From Polyangiaceae bacterium UTPRO1 (GTDB lineage: Bacteria; Desulfobacterota; Binatia; UTPRO1): 64,000 nt of DNA. The number at the start of each line of letters is the position of its first letter. Position 1 is the stretch's first letter. Of this stretch, positions 38,214 to 46,123 are shown piece by piece. Both the position numbers and the translations under genes were made by a program. The stretch spans positions 1 through 64,000 of the forward strand of contig MWST01000017.1 in NCBI GenBank assembly GCA_002050235.1, read 5' to 3'. The notes below the pieces were generated by a model. The model did no database searches and was not told the origin of the DNA. It saw only the letters and a list, made by a program, of their open reading frames with translations.

Positions 38214-39785
38214 TCAGGGCAGGACGACGGTCGACGGCAGGCAGAGGTCGCGCGGCCCGAAGATCGGGTACTGGTCGGCGCCGAACTGGTTGTTCGCGTA
38301 GACCAGCGGCGGCGCCGTCTGCGGCCGTACCCCGCGTACCTGGAAGCAGAGCATCGCGGCGCCGGGGCTCGGGACGCCCTCGCCGTTCTTGTCGGCCGCG
38401 AGGCACAGGTGCAGGGGCCGCTTCACGTCGACGCCGATGGTGCCGAACTGGTCGCTGATCGTGAGGTTCTTGGCGCGGACCTTGGCGCCGCTCACGCGGT
38501 AGCACTTGAAGTGGTCGAGCGGCTCGGCGAGCGGATCGGGCGGCGCGGTCGTGCTCTTCGCCGTCGGCACGAGCATCCGATCGGGACGGGTCAGCTTGAC
38601 GGTCACGGAGCCGAGCGGGCTGGTCACGTCGACGTTCTTGAGCCGCGTGAACGGGCTCGTCGGCGCCGTCGTGTAGTAGGTGAGGTGTCCCGGGTGCGCG
38701 GCTGCGGCGGGATCGGCGCCGTTCACGTCGGCCGGTGCGCACAGGCGCTTGGCGCGCTTGACGACGACCGTGCTCGGGCCGCGCGCGTCGTCCAGCGTCA
38801 CCGTGCGGCCGAGCGGCGGCCGGTGGATCTCGTAGCACTGGAACGGATCTCTGACGCCGCCTGCGGGCGGCTGCAGCGGCGGGAACTCGAGGGTGACGTT
38901 GTTGTTGGGGTCGCCGCTGATGCGCCGGGCGATGTACCGGCCGAACAACTGGTTGCGGCCGCCGAGGTCGAGCCAGCCGTTCGGAGAGAACAACTGGACG
39001 TGGATCTCGGCGTAATGGGCGAGGTTCACCGCCGGCGCCGCCGCCGGATTGAAGCCGAGGGCGCCGAGGAAGATCTGCGCGCCCGAGTGGGTGCCGAGTC
39101 CGAGCTGCAGACCGTCGTTGATCGTCATGCCGCGGTCGATCTGGAGGACGGTCTGATCGGTCACGTTGATGGTGACGTTGCGTCCGCTCGCGAGACTGCG
39201 GAGGTCGAAGGTGCCGGCGCCGAAACTCACCTCGACGCCGTCGTTCAGCCGGACGTCGCGATAGGCGCCCGGGGCGAACGTGAACGGGCTCGGAATTCCG
39301 GTGCCGCCGACGGTGACGTCGGCGGCGTCGTCGGTGAGCGCTCGTCCGGGCGTGAAGGGGAACACCGGGAGGTTCGCCGGCTGGATGATCGGCGCCGAGA
39401 ACGGGATCGGACCGGCACCGTTGATCGTTGCCGCGAAGTTCGAGTTCACGCGGTTGGCGAAGAGGTCGTGGAAGACGCCCTCGGTGTTCGAGCAACGGAC
39501 GCTGTCGGCGACCGCGTGCGAGCCCGGATCCATGATCACGCGTCCGGAGGTGGCGTAGGAAAGGGCGAACGCGTTCGGATTCGCGGTCGGGTAGTTGACG
39601 CCGATGTCGCCGCCGCGGATGTGGCCGCGCGGCGATGCCCCGGTAGCGCCTTTCAGGATCATCTCGTCGTAGGCGAAGAGCACGTAGCTATCGATGACGC
39701 GCGGGGGTTCGACGGCGCTCGCGGTCGTCGCGGCCACGGCGATGAGCGCGAGTGCGAAGGCTCTCATGAGCGTCTGGGAGGACAT
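38214..39785 (-). CDS. Secreted protein with four CY-LC repeats
   Basis: A 523-residue exported protein. A signal peptide (about 1-24, cut near ASA) is followed by a beta-rich, Asn/Gly-rich region (about 30-300) with HIRGGDIGVNYP, resembling passive adhesin or choice-of-anchor folds. The C-terminal third has four repeats of about 52-58 residues, each opening with an aromatic CY motif and closing with LC. Copies are C317-C349, a Cys-less copy around 368-408, C428-C461 (CYRV then DQFGTIGVDVKRPLHLC) and C480-C515. The ribosome site AAGGAGA precedes the ATG. Function is unknown; an extracellular structural or binding role is inference. Confidence 0.8.
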   Translation of the reverse strand: MSSQTLMRAFALALIAVAATTASAVEPPRVIDSYVLFAYDEMILKGATGASPRGHIRGGDIGVNYPTANPNAFALSYATSGRVIMDPGSHAVADSVRCSNTEGVFHDLFANRVNSNFAATINGAGPIPFSAPIIQPANLPVFPFTPGRALTDDAADVTVGGTGIPSPFTFAPGAYRDVRLNDGVEVSFGAGTFDLRSLASGRNVTINVTDQTVLQIDRGMTINDGLQLGLGTHSGAQIFLGALGFNPAAAPAVNLAHYAEIHVQLFSPNGWLDLGGRNQLFGRYIARRISGDPNNNVTLEFPPLQPPAGGVRDPFQCYEIHRPPLGRTVTLDDARGPSTVVVKRAKRLCAPADVNGADPAAAAHPGHLTYYTTAPTSPFTRLKNVDVTSPLGSVTVKLTRPDRMLVPTAKSTTAPPDPLAEPLDHFKCYRVSGAKVRAKNLTISDQFGTIGVDVKRPLHLCLAADKNGEGVPSPGAAMLCFQVRGVRPQTAPPLVYANNQFGADQYPIFGPRDLCLPSTVVLP

Positions 39786-39947: not shown

Positions 39948-41717
39948 TCAGAAACGCGCCCACCAGGGCGTGAAGCGCTCGCCCGGGACCTCGATCACGA
40001 CCGAATACTCGTCGAGCAGCGTACCCTGGGCGCGCGCGAGCTCGGCGAGCGAGATGTTGTAGTCGGTGGCGGCCTGTAGCTCCACGCCGCGTGCCTGCGT
40101 CAGATCGTCCTGGAAGTCGAGGACGTCCTTGGTAGTGACGATGCCGACTTCGAGGCGCTTCTGCTGGTTGCGGAGATTCTCCTCGGCGAGCTCGCGGGCG
40201 ATGCGCGAGGCCTCGATGCGCTTCATGTTGGCGACGACGTCGTTGACCGCCGTCGAGACCTCGAGATTGATGTCGGAGAAGAGCTGGCGGCGGGTGAGCT
40301 CGGATTGCGAGACGTCGATCTTCGCCTTGGCGTATTCGCTCTTGGCGGCGGCGTTGCCGATCGGGATCTCGATCTGGACGCCGGCCTGGTAGGAGTAGAA
40401 CTTCCTGTTCGTGAGGCGGTCGAGCGCTTTCCAATAGGAGCCGTCGTAGGGCGTCTGGACCTGCTGGCCGGTGCTCGGATCGACCACCGGGACCGCGTCG
40501 CCGGAAAGTCCGTTCAGCCCGACGTTGCCGACGAAATCGAAGCGCGGCAGCAACTGGTTCTCGCGGACCCGCGCCGTCACCTGCTTGCTCTCGAGGTCGT
40601 AGGTCTGGGCGTGGACCTCCGGCCGGCGATCGAGGGCGAGGGCGAGGGCGGCTTTGGCGTCGACCGTGACCGGCGCGGTGCGCGGGAGGTCGATCGGCTC
40701 GATCGGGCGCGGGACGAAGGCGCCGCCCTTCTGGAGGTACACGATCTGGCGCAGCGTGCGGAGCGCGTTGTCGAGCTGGTTGTCGGCGACGATCACCTGT
40801 TGTTCGCGGGCGGCGGCCTGGCTCTCGGCTTCTTTCACCGCGACCGGCGCCAGCAGGCCGACGCGCACGCGTTCCTGGTTCTCGCGCAGGGTCTGACGCG
40901 CGAGATCCAGGGACTGTTGCTGCACGACGAGGTTCTGGCGCGCGTAGACGACGATCCAGTAGGCGGCGATCACCTGCTTCACGAAGTTGGCGAGATCGGC
41001 GCGGTACTGCCACGCGGCCGCCTCGGACTGGAGCTTGGTGACGTCGACGAGGAGGTAGGCGAAGTTCAAACCGAAGTTCCTGAGCAGCGGCTGGTTCAGG
41101 GAGAACACCAGCTCCGGCTGATATTGCGGGATCAAGCCCTGGAAGCGGGCGTTCGATACGAAGCGGTTGTTCGTGAAGTCGATGCGGAAATTGCCGCCGG
41201 TGCGCAGGGTCTTGGCGAGTGCGGCATCGAAGTTGACGTTCCCCTGCACGCTGATCGGCACGCCGGCGAGGGCCGAGGAGTTCGGCGCCTTGCGGCGGTC
41301 CTTGTTGACCGCGCCGGAGAGGATCGGATCGAAGATGGCCTCGGCGGAGCGGACGTCCTCGCGCTGGCGCAGCGGCGTCAACCGCGACGCTGCGATGCCC
41401 GGGTTGTGGAGCAGGGCCTGGTGCACCGCCTCGGCGACTGTCAGGCGGGCGGTCTCGGTCTCCTCGGCGCCGGCGTCCGGCGTGCCGATGGCGGGAGCCC
41501 GATATTTCCACTGGTGCGCGAATACCTGCGGCATGTAGGGCGTGGCGTCGAACTCGGCTTCGCGGCGCGCCGACGTTGCGGTGTCGATGGTCGCGCGTCC
41601 TGCGGAATCGCCGCTCATCGCGGCGACCGGCCGGGCGGCGTCGTCGGCCGCCGCTCGACCGCCCAGCGCCGCGAGTCCCAGTAAGACGGCGATCCCGATT
41701 CGTCGACACGTTTTCAT
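39948..41717 (-). CDS. TolC family outer-membrane efflux protein
   Basis: A 589-residue outer-membrane factor. A signal peptide (MKTCRRIGIAVLLGLAALGG, cut near RAAA) is followed by a long N-terminal extension, the family start LTVAEAVHQALLHNPGIAAS, and two outer-membrane-efflux repeats with long helices such as ESQAAAREQQVIVADNQLDN and ELAEENLRNQQKRLEVGIVT. The beta parts end in GERFTPWWARF. GAGGAG precedes the ATG. No pump genes lie next to it, so its partner is encoded elsewhere. Confidence 0.92.
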   Translation of the reverse strand: MKTCRRIGIAVLLGLAALGGRAAADDAARPVAAMSGDSAGRATIDTATSARREAEFDATPYMPQVFAHQWKYRAPAIGTPDAGAEETETARLTVAEAVHQALLHNPGIAASRLTPLRQREDVRSAEAIFDPILSGAVNKDRRKAPNSSALAGVPISVQGNVNFDAALAKTLRTGGNFRIDFTNNRFVSNARFQGLIPQYQPELVFSLNQPLLRNFGLNFAYLLVDVTKLQSEAAAWQYRADLANFVKQVIAAYWIVVYARQNLVVQQQSLDLARQTLRENQERVRVGLLAPVAVKEAESQAAAREQQVIVADNQLDNALRTLRQIVYLQKGGAFVPRPIEPIDLPRTAPVTVDAKAALALALDRRPEVHAQTYDLESKQVTARVRENQLLPRFDFVGNVGLNGLSGDAVPVVDPSTGQQVQTPYDGSYWKALDRLTNRKFYSYQAGVQIEIPIGNAAAKSEYAKAKIDVSQSELTRRQLFSDINLEVSTAVNDVVANMKRIEASRIARELAEENLRNQQKRLEVGIVTTKDVLDFQDDLTQARGVELQAATDYNISLAELARAQGTLLDEYSVVIEVPGERFTPWWARF

Positions 41718-41884: not shown

Positions 41885-41913
41885 TTGACACTCCGAAGGC
41901 GCTTGGTTACGCT
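41885..41913 (+). promoter_or_regulatory. Promoter of the aminotransferase-serA-purA operon
   Basis: A perfect TTGACA (41885-41890) is followed after 17 nt by TACGCT (41908-41913, 3/6). Initiation would be near 41920, about 20 nt before the riboswitch aptamer starts. The leader to ATG 42077 is then about 157 nt. Confidence 0.6.
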
Positions 41914-41941
41914 TCGCCCCCTTCATACGACTGGTTGGGTA

Positions 41942-42008
41942 TCGCACGACTGGCGTTTACGTGGAGCACCACGAGGAAGTGCGACCTTCAGGAGCCGAAC
42001 GCCTGGGC
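41942..42008 (+). promoter_or_regulatory. Candidate ZTP (pfl) riboswitch aptamer
   Basis: The elements align with the ZTP/ZMP (pfl) aptamer as I remember it. P1 is TCGCA (41942-41946) with TGCGA (41980-41984). The conserved GACTGGCG is at 41948-41955. P2 is CGTGG (41960-41964), loop AGCA and CCACG (41969-41973). AGGAAG (41974-41979) corresponds to the GGGGAG strand. After a linker, the 3' core CGCCTGGGC is at 42000-42008. Its CGCC can form the family pseudoknot with GGCG at 41952-41955. The 3' core is inside the 5' arm of the following terminator, as expected for an ON switch. Known targets of this class are folate, one-carbon and purine genes. Confidence 0.8.
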
Positions 42009-42037
42009 CTCTGAGTGGAAGGGGTCCAGGCTTTTTT
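42001..42037 (+). terminator. Intrinsic terminator in the leader (riboswitch expression platform)
   Basis: A 12-bp stem pairs 42001-42012 with 42020-42031, including two G-T (G-U) pairs, with a 7-nt loop (42013-42019) and six T at 42032-42037. It lies 40 nt upstream of the first start codon, so it would attenuate the operon rather than end a gene. It shares bases 42001-42008 with the aptamer core, so folding of one excludes the other. Confidence 0.85.
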
Positions 42038-42076: not shown

Positions 42077-43234
42077 ATGATCAAGAAATATCTGCTCGCC
42101 CCGGGTCCGACCCCCGTTCCCGAATCCGTGCTCCTGGCGATGGCGCAACCGATCTTCCACCACCGTACGCCCCAGTTCGAAGCGCTGTTCGCGGAGACGG
42201 CGAAAGCGCTGCAAGGACTCTTCAAGACCACGCAGGACGTGATCGTGCTGGCATCTTCCGGGACCGGCGCCATGGAGGCTGCGGTCGTCAACACGACCTC
42301 TCCCGGCGACCGCGTTCTGGTGGTGAACGGCGGCAAGTTCGGCGAGCGCTGGGGCAAGATCGCCGCCGGCTACGGGCTCGTGGTCGACGAGATCGCGGTC
42401 GAGTGGGGCACGGCGGTCGATCCGGCCGCGATCGCCAAGGCGTTGCGGGAGCGACCCGAGACCAAGCTCGTGCTCGTGCAGGCCAGCGAGACGTCGACGA
42501 CCGTACTGCACCAGGTCGCGGAGATCGCCAAGATCACGCGCGCCACCGACACGCTCCTGGTCGTCGACGGCATCACGGCGGTCGGCGTGCTCGACCTGCC
42601 GATGGACGCGCTCGGCATCGACGTCCTCGTCACCGGCTCGCAGAAGGCGCTGATGCTGCCGCCGGGCCTCGCCTTCGTCGCCCTATCCGAGAAGGCGTGG
42701 AAGGCGGCGGCCGCGGCGCAGCAGCCGCGCTTCTACTTCGACCTGAAGCGCGAGCGCGACAACCAACAGAAGCACACGACCGCGTGGACGCCGGCGATCT
42801 CGCTGATCTTCGGACTGCACGAGGCGCTGCGGCTGCTCTTCGCCGAGGGCCTCGACAACGTCTTCGCCCGCCACGATAGGCTGGCGCGCGCCACCCGCGC
42901 CGGCGTCCGGGCGCTCGGCCTCGAGCTCGTGGCGCCGACGGCGCCGAGTCCGGCGACCACCGGCCTCTACCTGCCGGCGGGCGTGCCCGGAAAGATCGTC
43001 GGCTACCTGCGCGACGCCGTCGGCGTCACCTTCGCCGGCGGCCAGGATCGGTTCAAGGGCAAGATCTGCCGGATCGCCCACCTCGGCTACATCGGCAGCT
43101 TCGACATCGTGACCGCAATGGCGGCGCTGGAAATGGGCATCGCCGCGTACGGGAGGCCGGTCACGCTCGGCAGGGGCGTCGGCGCCGCTCAGGAGATCCT
43201 CCTGGAAGGCATGCCCGCCGTGCCGGCGGCCTGA
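42077..43234 (+). CDS. Class V aminotransferase (alanine/serine-glyoxylate family)
   Basis: A PLP-dependent enzyme of 385 residues. The start MIKKYLLAPGPTPVPESVL is typical of the alanine-glyoxylate/serine-pyruvate branch. VLASSGTGAMEAAVVNTTSPG is the phosphate-binding region, DTLLVVDGITAVG carries the PLP-ring Asp, and the Schiff-base lysine is K190 in TGSQKALMLPPG. Placement directly before serA suggests that it acts as the phosphoserine or serine-forming transaminase; sequence alone cannot separate this from serine-glyoxylate activity. It is the first gene after the candidate ZTP riboswitch. Confidence 0.92.
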   Translation: MIKKYLLAPGPTPVPESVLLAMAQPIFHHRTPQFEALFAETAKALQGLFKTTQDVIVLASSGTGAMEAAVVNTTSPGDRVLVVNGGKFGERWGKIAAGYGLVVDEIAVEWGTAVDPAAIAKALRERPETKLVLVQASETSTTVLHQVAEIAKITRATDTLLVVDGITAVGVLDLPMDALGIDVLVTGSQKALMLPPGLAFVALSEKAWKAAAAAQQPRFYFDLKRERDNQQKHTTAWTPAISLIFGLHEALRLLFAEGLDNVFARHDRLARATRAGVRALGLELVAPTAPSPATTGLYLPAGVPGKIVGYLRDAVGVTFAGGQDRFKGKICRIAHLGYIGSFDIVTAMAALEMGIAAYGRPVTLGRGVGAAQEILLEGMPAVPAA

Positions 43235-44842: not shown

Positions 44843-46123
44843 ATGTCCGCGACCGTGGTCGTCGGCGTCCAGTGGGGCGACGAGGGCAAGGGGAAGTTCG
44901 TCGACATCCTGGCGCGCGACGCCGACATCGTCGTCCGCTTCCAGGGCGGCAACAACGCCGGGCACACGCTCGTCGTCGGCGACGAGCGCACCGTGCTGCA
45001 CTTGATCCCCTCGGGCGTCCTCAACTCGGGGAAGATCTGCGTCATCGCCAACGGGGTCGTCGTCGATCCCGCGGTCCTGGTCGACGAGCTCGCGGCGCTG
45101 CGCGCCCGCGGCTACTTGAGCGACGACGCCTGCCTCAAGATCAGCGACGAGGCGCACTTGATCATGCCGTATCACAAGGCCATCGACGTCGCCCGCGAGC
45201 GGCTGCGCGGCAAGGGCGAGATCGGCACCACCGGCCGCGGCATCGGGCCGGCGTACGAGGACAAGGTCGCGCGCACCGGCATCCGCATCGTCGACCTTCT
45301 CGATGCGGCCGTCTTCGAGGAGAAGCTCGAGCGCAACATCCGCGAGAAGAACCTCTACCTGAAGGCGATCCTCCGGGAGGAGGCGCTCGATTTCGGCGCC
45401 GTACACGACGCCTTCCGCGCCCACGCCGACCGCCTCCGCCCCTACGTGACCGACACGGCGCTCTATCTGCATCGCGAGATCGAAGCCGGCCGGCGCGTCC
45501 TCTTCGAGGGGGCCCAGGGGACGATGCTCGACGTCGACCACGGCACCTACCCGTACGTGACGTCGTCGAACTGCGTCGCCGGCGCGGTCGCGGCCGGCGC
45601 CGGGATCGGCGCCGGCGTCGTGCAGCAGGTCATCGGCATCTGCAAGGCCTACACGACCCGCGTCGGCAACGGCCCGTTTCCGACCGAGGAGCCGGGCGCC
45701 ATCGGCGCGCGCCTGCGCGAGACCGGCGACGAGTTCGGCGCGACGACGGGCCGGCCGCGGCGCTGCGGCTGGTTCGACGCCGTGCTGGTCCGTCAAGCAG
45801 CGCGTCTGAACGGCTTGACCGGCATCGCCCTCACCAAGCTCGACGTGCTGACCGGGCTCGACCCGCTGCGCATCTGCACCGCGTACCGCGCCGAGGGCGA
45901 GCGCTACGAGCGCGTGCCGGCGAGCGCGCGGCTCCTCGCCGCCGCGGTGCCGGAATACGAGGAGCTGCCCGGGTGGACCGAGCCGCTCGCGAACGCCCGG
46001 CGGCTCGAGGATCTGCCGCCGAATGCACGCCGTTACGTGGCGCGGCTCGAGGAGCTCTCGGGAACGCCGTTCACGATGATCTCGGTGGGCGCGCGGCGCG
46101 AAGAGACGATAATCCTCGCCTGA
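44843..46123 (+). CDS. purA: Adenylosuccinate synthetase PurA
   Basis: PurA condenses IMP and aspartate with GTP, the first step from IMP to AMP. The 426 residues start MSATVVVGVQWGDEGKGKFV with the catalytic D13 and H41 (GGNNAGHTLVVG). TTGRGIGPAYEDK, FEGAQGTMLDVDHGTYPYVT and ALTKLDVLTGLDPL are family blocks. Co-transcription with serA and the aminotransferase ties AMP synthesis to one-carbon supply and fits control by ZTP, a purine-pathway alarmone. Confidence 0.97.
   Translation: MSATVVVGVQWGDEGKGKFVDILARDADIVVRFQGGNNAGHTLVVGDERTVLHLIPSGVLNSGKICVIANGVVVDPAVLVDELAALRARGYLSDDACLKISDEAHLIMPYHKAIDVARERLRGKGEIGTTGRGIGPAYEDKVARTGIRIVDLLDAAVFEEKLERNIREKNLYLKAILREEALDFGAVHDAFRAHADRLRPYVTDTALYLHREIEAGRRVLFEGAQGTMLDVDHGTYPYVTSSNCVAGAVAAGAGIGAGVVQQVIGICKAYTTRVGNGPFPTEEPGAIGARLRETGDEFGATTGRPRRCGWFDAVLVRQAARLNGLTGIALTKLDVLTGLDPLRICTAYRAEGERYERVPASARLLAAAVPEYEELPGWTEPLANARRLEDLPPNARRYVARLEELSGTPFTMISVGARREETIILA

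Follow-up and report, generated by a model that had tools for sequence, protein, structure and literature searches.

A ZMP/ZTP riboswitch with an overlapping terminator is a probable transcriptional ON switch for an aminotransferase-serA-purA operon

Serine is a main one-carbon donor, converted by GlyA to glycine and a one-carbon unit, and PurA catalyzes the first committed step from IMP to AMP. In the window (the whole 64,000-nucleotide stretch of DNA analyzed here), serA and purA lie together behind an aminotransferase gene, downstream of a leader in which a first-pass annotation had seen a candidate ZTP riboswitch with an overlapping terminator. ZMP and ZTP build up when 10-formyl-tetrahydrofolate (10-formyl-THF) is short, and they switch on genes that supply one-carbon units and purines (PMC2864571, PMC7266159, PMC9481103). 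Does this leader contain a member of the ZMP/ZTP class, and could such an RNA join serine and AMP synthesis under one signal of folate shortage?

A cmscan search placed a match to RF01750 (the Rfam ZMP-ZTP family, or pfl motif) at 41936-42015 on the plus strand, bearing out the candidate with a score of 57.5 bits, well over the gathering score of 39. The match spans the full length of the model (1-86), with E-values of 3.1e-8 when 2 kb were scanned and 1e-6 when 64 kb were scanned. No other Rfam family exceeded its gathering score in the 64-kb window, and no second RF01750 match was found in the 3.8-Mb genome, which is ~89% complete, so another copy could be missing. Aligned to the model, the window aptamer contains the conserved core of the family (CTGGCG, GTGGA...ACCAC, GG.AG, GCCG and CGCCTGGGC). 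The elements of the leader, read from the sequence unless another source is given, are as follows.

41885-41913, plus strand: promoter-like element, TTGACA (41885-41890), 17-nt spacer and TACGCT (41908-41913); sequence and leader comparison
41936-42015, plus strand: ZMP/ZTP riboswitch aptamer; cmscan, RF01750
41942-41984, plus strand: P1, 6 bp, TCGCAC (41942-41947) with GTGCGA (41979-41984)
41948-41955, plus strand: GACTGGCG
41952-41955, plus strand: 5' strand of the pseudoknot, GGCG, with its partner CGCC at 42000-42003; sequence and conservation
41960-41973, plus strand: P2, CGTGG (41960-41964) with CCACG (41969-41973)
41974-41979, plus strand: AGGAAG
41994-42008, plus strand: P3, GCC (41994-41996) with GGC (42006-42008), around the 3' strand of the pseudoknot (42000-42003)
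42000-42008, plus strand: 3' core, CGCCTGGGC
42001-42037, plus strand: intrinsic terminator, 12-bp stem (42001-42031) with a 7-nt loop, then six T (42032-42037); terminator scan and folding

P1, P2, the pseudoknot, the 3' core and the terminator all lie where the first-pass annotation had put them; the pairing it proposed for P1 held, and only the length differs, at 6 bp instead of 5. Judged by its sequence, the window RNA is an ordinary member of the known ZMP/ZTP riboswitch class, with an ordinary consensus core.

The proposed pairing is also kept in relatives. Across 60 distinct aptamers from the window's class, 96.4% of the cells in P1, P2, P3 and the pseudoknot are standard pairs, seven pairs have changed at both positions, and none of 500 shuffles reached the observed covariation score. 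Both-sided changes occur at five of the six pairs of P1 and at two pairs of P2, which is 99.3% paired, while P3 is 100% paired with one-sided variation only. The GGCG/CGCC pseudoknot is paired in all 60 aptamers, and the core positions are nearly all invariant within the class.

A terminator scan of the leader found exactly the hairpin listed above (one found, 0.3 expected by shuffling), and the stem-loop at 42001-42031 with its T6 tract folds with -24.1 kcal/mol (z = -4.2). The 5' arm of the terminator (42001-42012) contains most of the 3' strand of the pseudoknot (42000-42003) together with the 3' strand of P3 (42006-42008), and because these sequences are shared, the bound aptamer and the terminator would be mutually exclusive. 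The overlap, which had been proposed from a 12-bp stem plus six T beginning at 42001, proved correct for the window and is retained in 47 distinct class leaders, in which the terminator begins at the GCCTGGG core and ends with a T run; this conservation is taken from the alignment of the 47 leaders, as the automatic detector sometimes picked a later T run. In the same leaders 97.2% of the cells of the terminator stem are paired. Its variation is all one-sided (G-C/G-U and A-U/G-U), with no compensatory changes, and shuffling scores equally well, so that the terminator adds conservation but not covariation.

The promoter-like TTGACA-N17-TACGCT ends 22 nt ahead of the aptamer match. A strict sigma-70 scan of the leader reported no promoter because the -10 element matches at only three of six positions. 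All 59 comparable class leaders, those of glyA aside, have TTGAC-N16-19-TA at 25-65 nt ahead of the aptamer (0.26 expected from base shuffles); they are mutually related and do not represent 59 independent events. The upstream gene, which encodes a TolC-like protein (39948-41717, minus strand), is divergent, and the leader thus has its own promoter region. Also on the minus strand, at 38214-39785, is a gene for a protein with a DUF7450 repeat (PF24247).

Protein-family matches (PF00266, TIGR01327 and TIGR00184) identified the three genes downstream of the leader as the trio named in the first-pass annotation, and a fourth gene follows them.

42077-43234, plus strand: class-V aminotransferase, probable phosphoserine aminotransferase; PF00266
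43248-44834, plus strand: serA, D-3-phosphoglycerate dehydrogenase with an ACT domain; TIGR01327 (660 bits, cut-off 454) and Pfam domains
44843-46123, plus strand: purA, adenylosuccinate synthase; TIGR00184 (529 bits, cut-off 396) and PF00709
46134-47384, plus strand: O-antigen-ligase-like membrane protein; PF04932

The aminotransferase gene and serA are separated by 13 bp, serA and purA by 8 bp, and purA and the O-antigen-ligase-like gene by 10 bp; given this last gap, the transcript may extend to the O-antigen-ligase-like gene and end with it.

RF01750 was present in 63 of 148 genomes of the window's class. Fifty-eight of the 68 class copies lie directly upstream of the same aminotransferase gene, which is followed by serA and, wherever the fetched sequence was long enough, by purA. 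Seven copies precede glyA, recognized from the protein sequences except at L130 and L132, where the assignment comes from the matching leader and open reading frame. One further copy (L129, in genome G012) has serA-purA immediately downstream, without the aminotransferase gene, whose best remaining homologue elsewhere in that genome is only 36% identical. Of the last two, one runs into a contig end, and the other, a second match in G003, is doubtful: it scores 37.6 bits, under the cut-off, no gene beside it is an obvious target, and we left it out of the target count. The class copies therefore stand ahead of purine and one-carbon genes, serA and purA in the window and glyA elsewhere. The glyA gene is already known as a target of this RNA class (PMC2864571), and its presence as the other target in the window's class fits, independently, with ZTP control of serine supply. 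The aminotransferase-serA pair is retained in class families that lack the RNA, indicating that ZTP control is not essential to the pathway.

The expression platform is not uniform across the class. The T run is absent from family f8 (L013, L015 and L129) and from one further genome. In several leaders lacking the T run, a possible partner for the aptamer core lies near the start codon; in the glyA leaders the P3 strand is able to pair with the ribosome-binding site. The f8-type and glyA leaders, considered as single sequences with mixed z-scores, look like a version of the switch that acts on translation, and family f8 suggests a change from transcriptional to translational control inside one class.

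We consider it very likely that the window RNA is a transcriptional ON switch for an aminotransferase-serA-purA operon. The RNA would start a few bases upstream of the aptamer. When ZMP and ZTP are low, the 3' core (the pseudoknot and P3 strand, GCCUGGGC) would be drawn into the 12-bp terminator and transcription would stop at the U tract. A shortage of 10-formyl-THF would cause ZMP and ZTP to accumulate, the bound ligand would hold P3 and the pseudoknot together, the terminator would be blocked, and the operon, purA included, would be transcribed. Additional serine would then supply one-carbon units via GlyA, and additional PurA would draw scarce IMP into AMP. Because PurA commits IMP to AMP, we infer that more of the enzyme would safeguard AMP at times of IMP scarcity. 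That the ZTP signal would control serine synthesis here and glyA in relatives of the class is a coherent reading of these loci.

Could the same RNA work in the opposite direction, with the ligand promoting termination? ZTP riboswitches of the OFF type have been proposed for moeA (PMC9481103), but we regard an OFF switch in the window as most improbable, given the mutual exclusion of bound aptamer and terminator that follows from their shared strand; moreover, no anti-terminator helix was seen in the window leader, and the genes downstream are ones whose expression would be expected to increase with ZTP. It is also very unlikely that the fold has been kept by a variant that senses another serine- or purine-linked metabolite. 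A different pseudoknot and unusual targets, such as isocitrate dehydrogenase and rnfC, do occur in a second lineage (described below) and would suit a changed ligand, yet the consensus core of the window RNA, the near invariance of that core in its class and the classic ZTP target glyA as the other class target all speak for the usual one. That the leader holds a decayed or chance look-alike followed by a plain terminator has almost no probability: folded by itself, the aptamer does no better than shuffled sequence (z = 0.39), a minimum-free-energy comparison that leaves the pseudoknot out and is uninformative, whereas the score lies well over the gathering cut-off, P1 and P2 covary, and the promoter-like element and the position ahead of the operon are conserved in tens of genomes.

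The alternative to which we give somewhat more weight, although we still consider it unlikely, concerns the first gene and not the RNA. If the aminotransferase acted outside serine synthesis, for example on serine and glyoxylate, the switch would serve glyoxylate or glycine metabolism and not phosphoserine formation. The nearest solved structures are serine-glyoxylate and serine/alanine-glyoxylate type aminotransferases, and no NCBIfam cut-off was reached by the window protein, the best model being BhcA (aspartate-glyoxylate; 309 bits, cut-off 650). The canonical SerC model (NF003764), which belongs to a different class-V branch, gave 26 bits against a cut-off of 253. Canonical SerC was, however, over its cut-off in none of the 38 class genomes searched, and the aminotransferase gene lies beside the gene for the ACT-domain phosphoglycerate dehydrogenase throughout the class, including 18 of 18 loci that have no ZTP RNA upstream, and in other phyla as well. 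Because of this fixed place next to serA and the lack of a canonical SerC over cut-off, the enzyme is probably a phosphoserine aminotransferase that works like SerC, as the proposed switch for serine synthesis would have it.

The switch that we propose resembles published ZMP/ZTP (pfl) riboswitches, such as those of Clostridium beijerinckii pfl and Thermosinus carboxydivorans, in its aptamer and pseudoknot, in a terminator that overlaps the 3' side of the aptamer, and in ON logic, but differs from them in its target operon, aminotransferase-serA-purA (PMC2864571, PMC10085676, PMC7337938). In Cupriavidus metallidurans, reporter expression from a ZTP-glyA switch rises with trimethoprim; that RNA belongs to the same ligand class and controls the use of serine as a one-carbon donor, whereas the window RNA would control serine synthesis (PMC10882993). 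The serC motif and the tandem of a glycine riboswitch with T-box-Ser ahead of serC/serA likewise place serine biosynthesis genes under RNA control, but these are unrelated RNAs that sense other signals (PMC7266159, PMC9481103). A literature search found no paper linking ZTP riboswitches to serA, with the qualification that the gene tables of the main 2015 paper lay outside the search and may list the association. The RNA class itself is known; what this analysis adds is how widely serA-purA is associated with it, the conserved design of promoter and terminator, and the recurrence in a second lineage. The association would carry the ZTP alarmone beyond its known control of serine use (glyA) to serine making, and across an uncultured bacterial class a single signal of folate shortage would govern both serine and AMP synthesis.

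The aminotransferase-serA pair, often with purA, also occurs in other records labelled Deltaproteobacteria and in records of Nitrospinota, Nitrospirota and Zetaproteobacteria, and most of these neighbourhoods lack a ZTP RNA; in the last three groups no convincing ZTP RNA was found near the pair. A second lineage of the window's phylum (e.g., Deltaproteobacteria bacterium GWB2_55_19, L046) carries RF01750 matches of 58-68 bits upstream of aminotransferase-serA, and in most of its aminotransferase leaders that were folded the terminator begins at the core. The pseudoknot of this lineage is GACG/CGUC, as opposed to GGCG/CGCC, a compensatory replacement of G-C by A-U that is paired in 50 of 50 sequences and that may have arisen once and been passed on to many of them. 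In L046, a gene between serA and purA was read by eye as hisZ. Recurrence in two distant lineages makes a role for ZTP outside folate genes directly testable.

Many members of the second lineage have three to five ZTP RNAs per genome (L255-L288 and L292-L294; e.g., G338, G420, G493 and G548). Besides aminotransferase-serA, these RNAs precede genes for a monomeric NADP-isocitrate dehydrogenase (TIGR00178), rnfC (TIGR01945) and a CPA2 cation:proton antiporter (TIGR00932), none of which is a folate or purine gene; a literature search found no paper joining ZTP riboswitches with isocitrate dehydrogenase. A lineage-wide ZTP regulon in this phylum, which we put forward tentatively and lean somewhat against, might use a lack of 10-formyl-THF as a broader signal of carbon and energy, acting on serine synthesis and purA in the window's class and, in the second lineage, also on NADP-isocitrate dehydrogenase, the Rnf complex and cation transporters, each through its own ZTP RNA. 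In genome G235 (L289, L290 and L291), ZTP RNAs stand before genes for a Kup potassium transporter and a dimeric NADP-isocitrate dehydrogenase and before sucC-sucD-like genes, the last accompanied by a korA-like gene and read by eye. Family f61 (L218 and, by resemblance to it, L224) has the RNA before the gene for formate-tetrahydrofolate ligase, a classic target.
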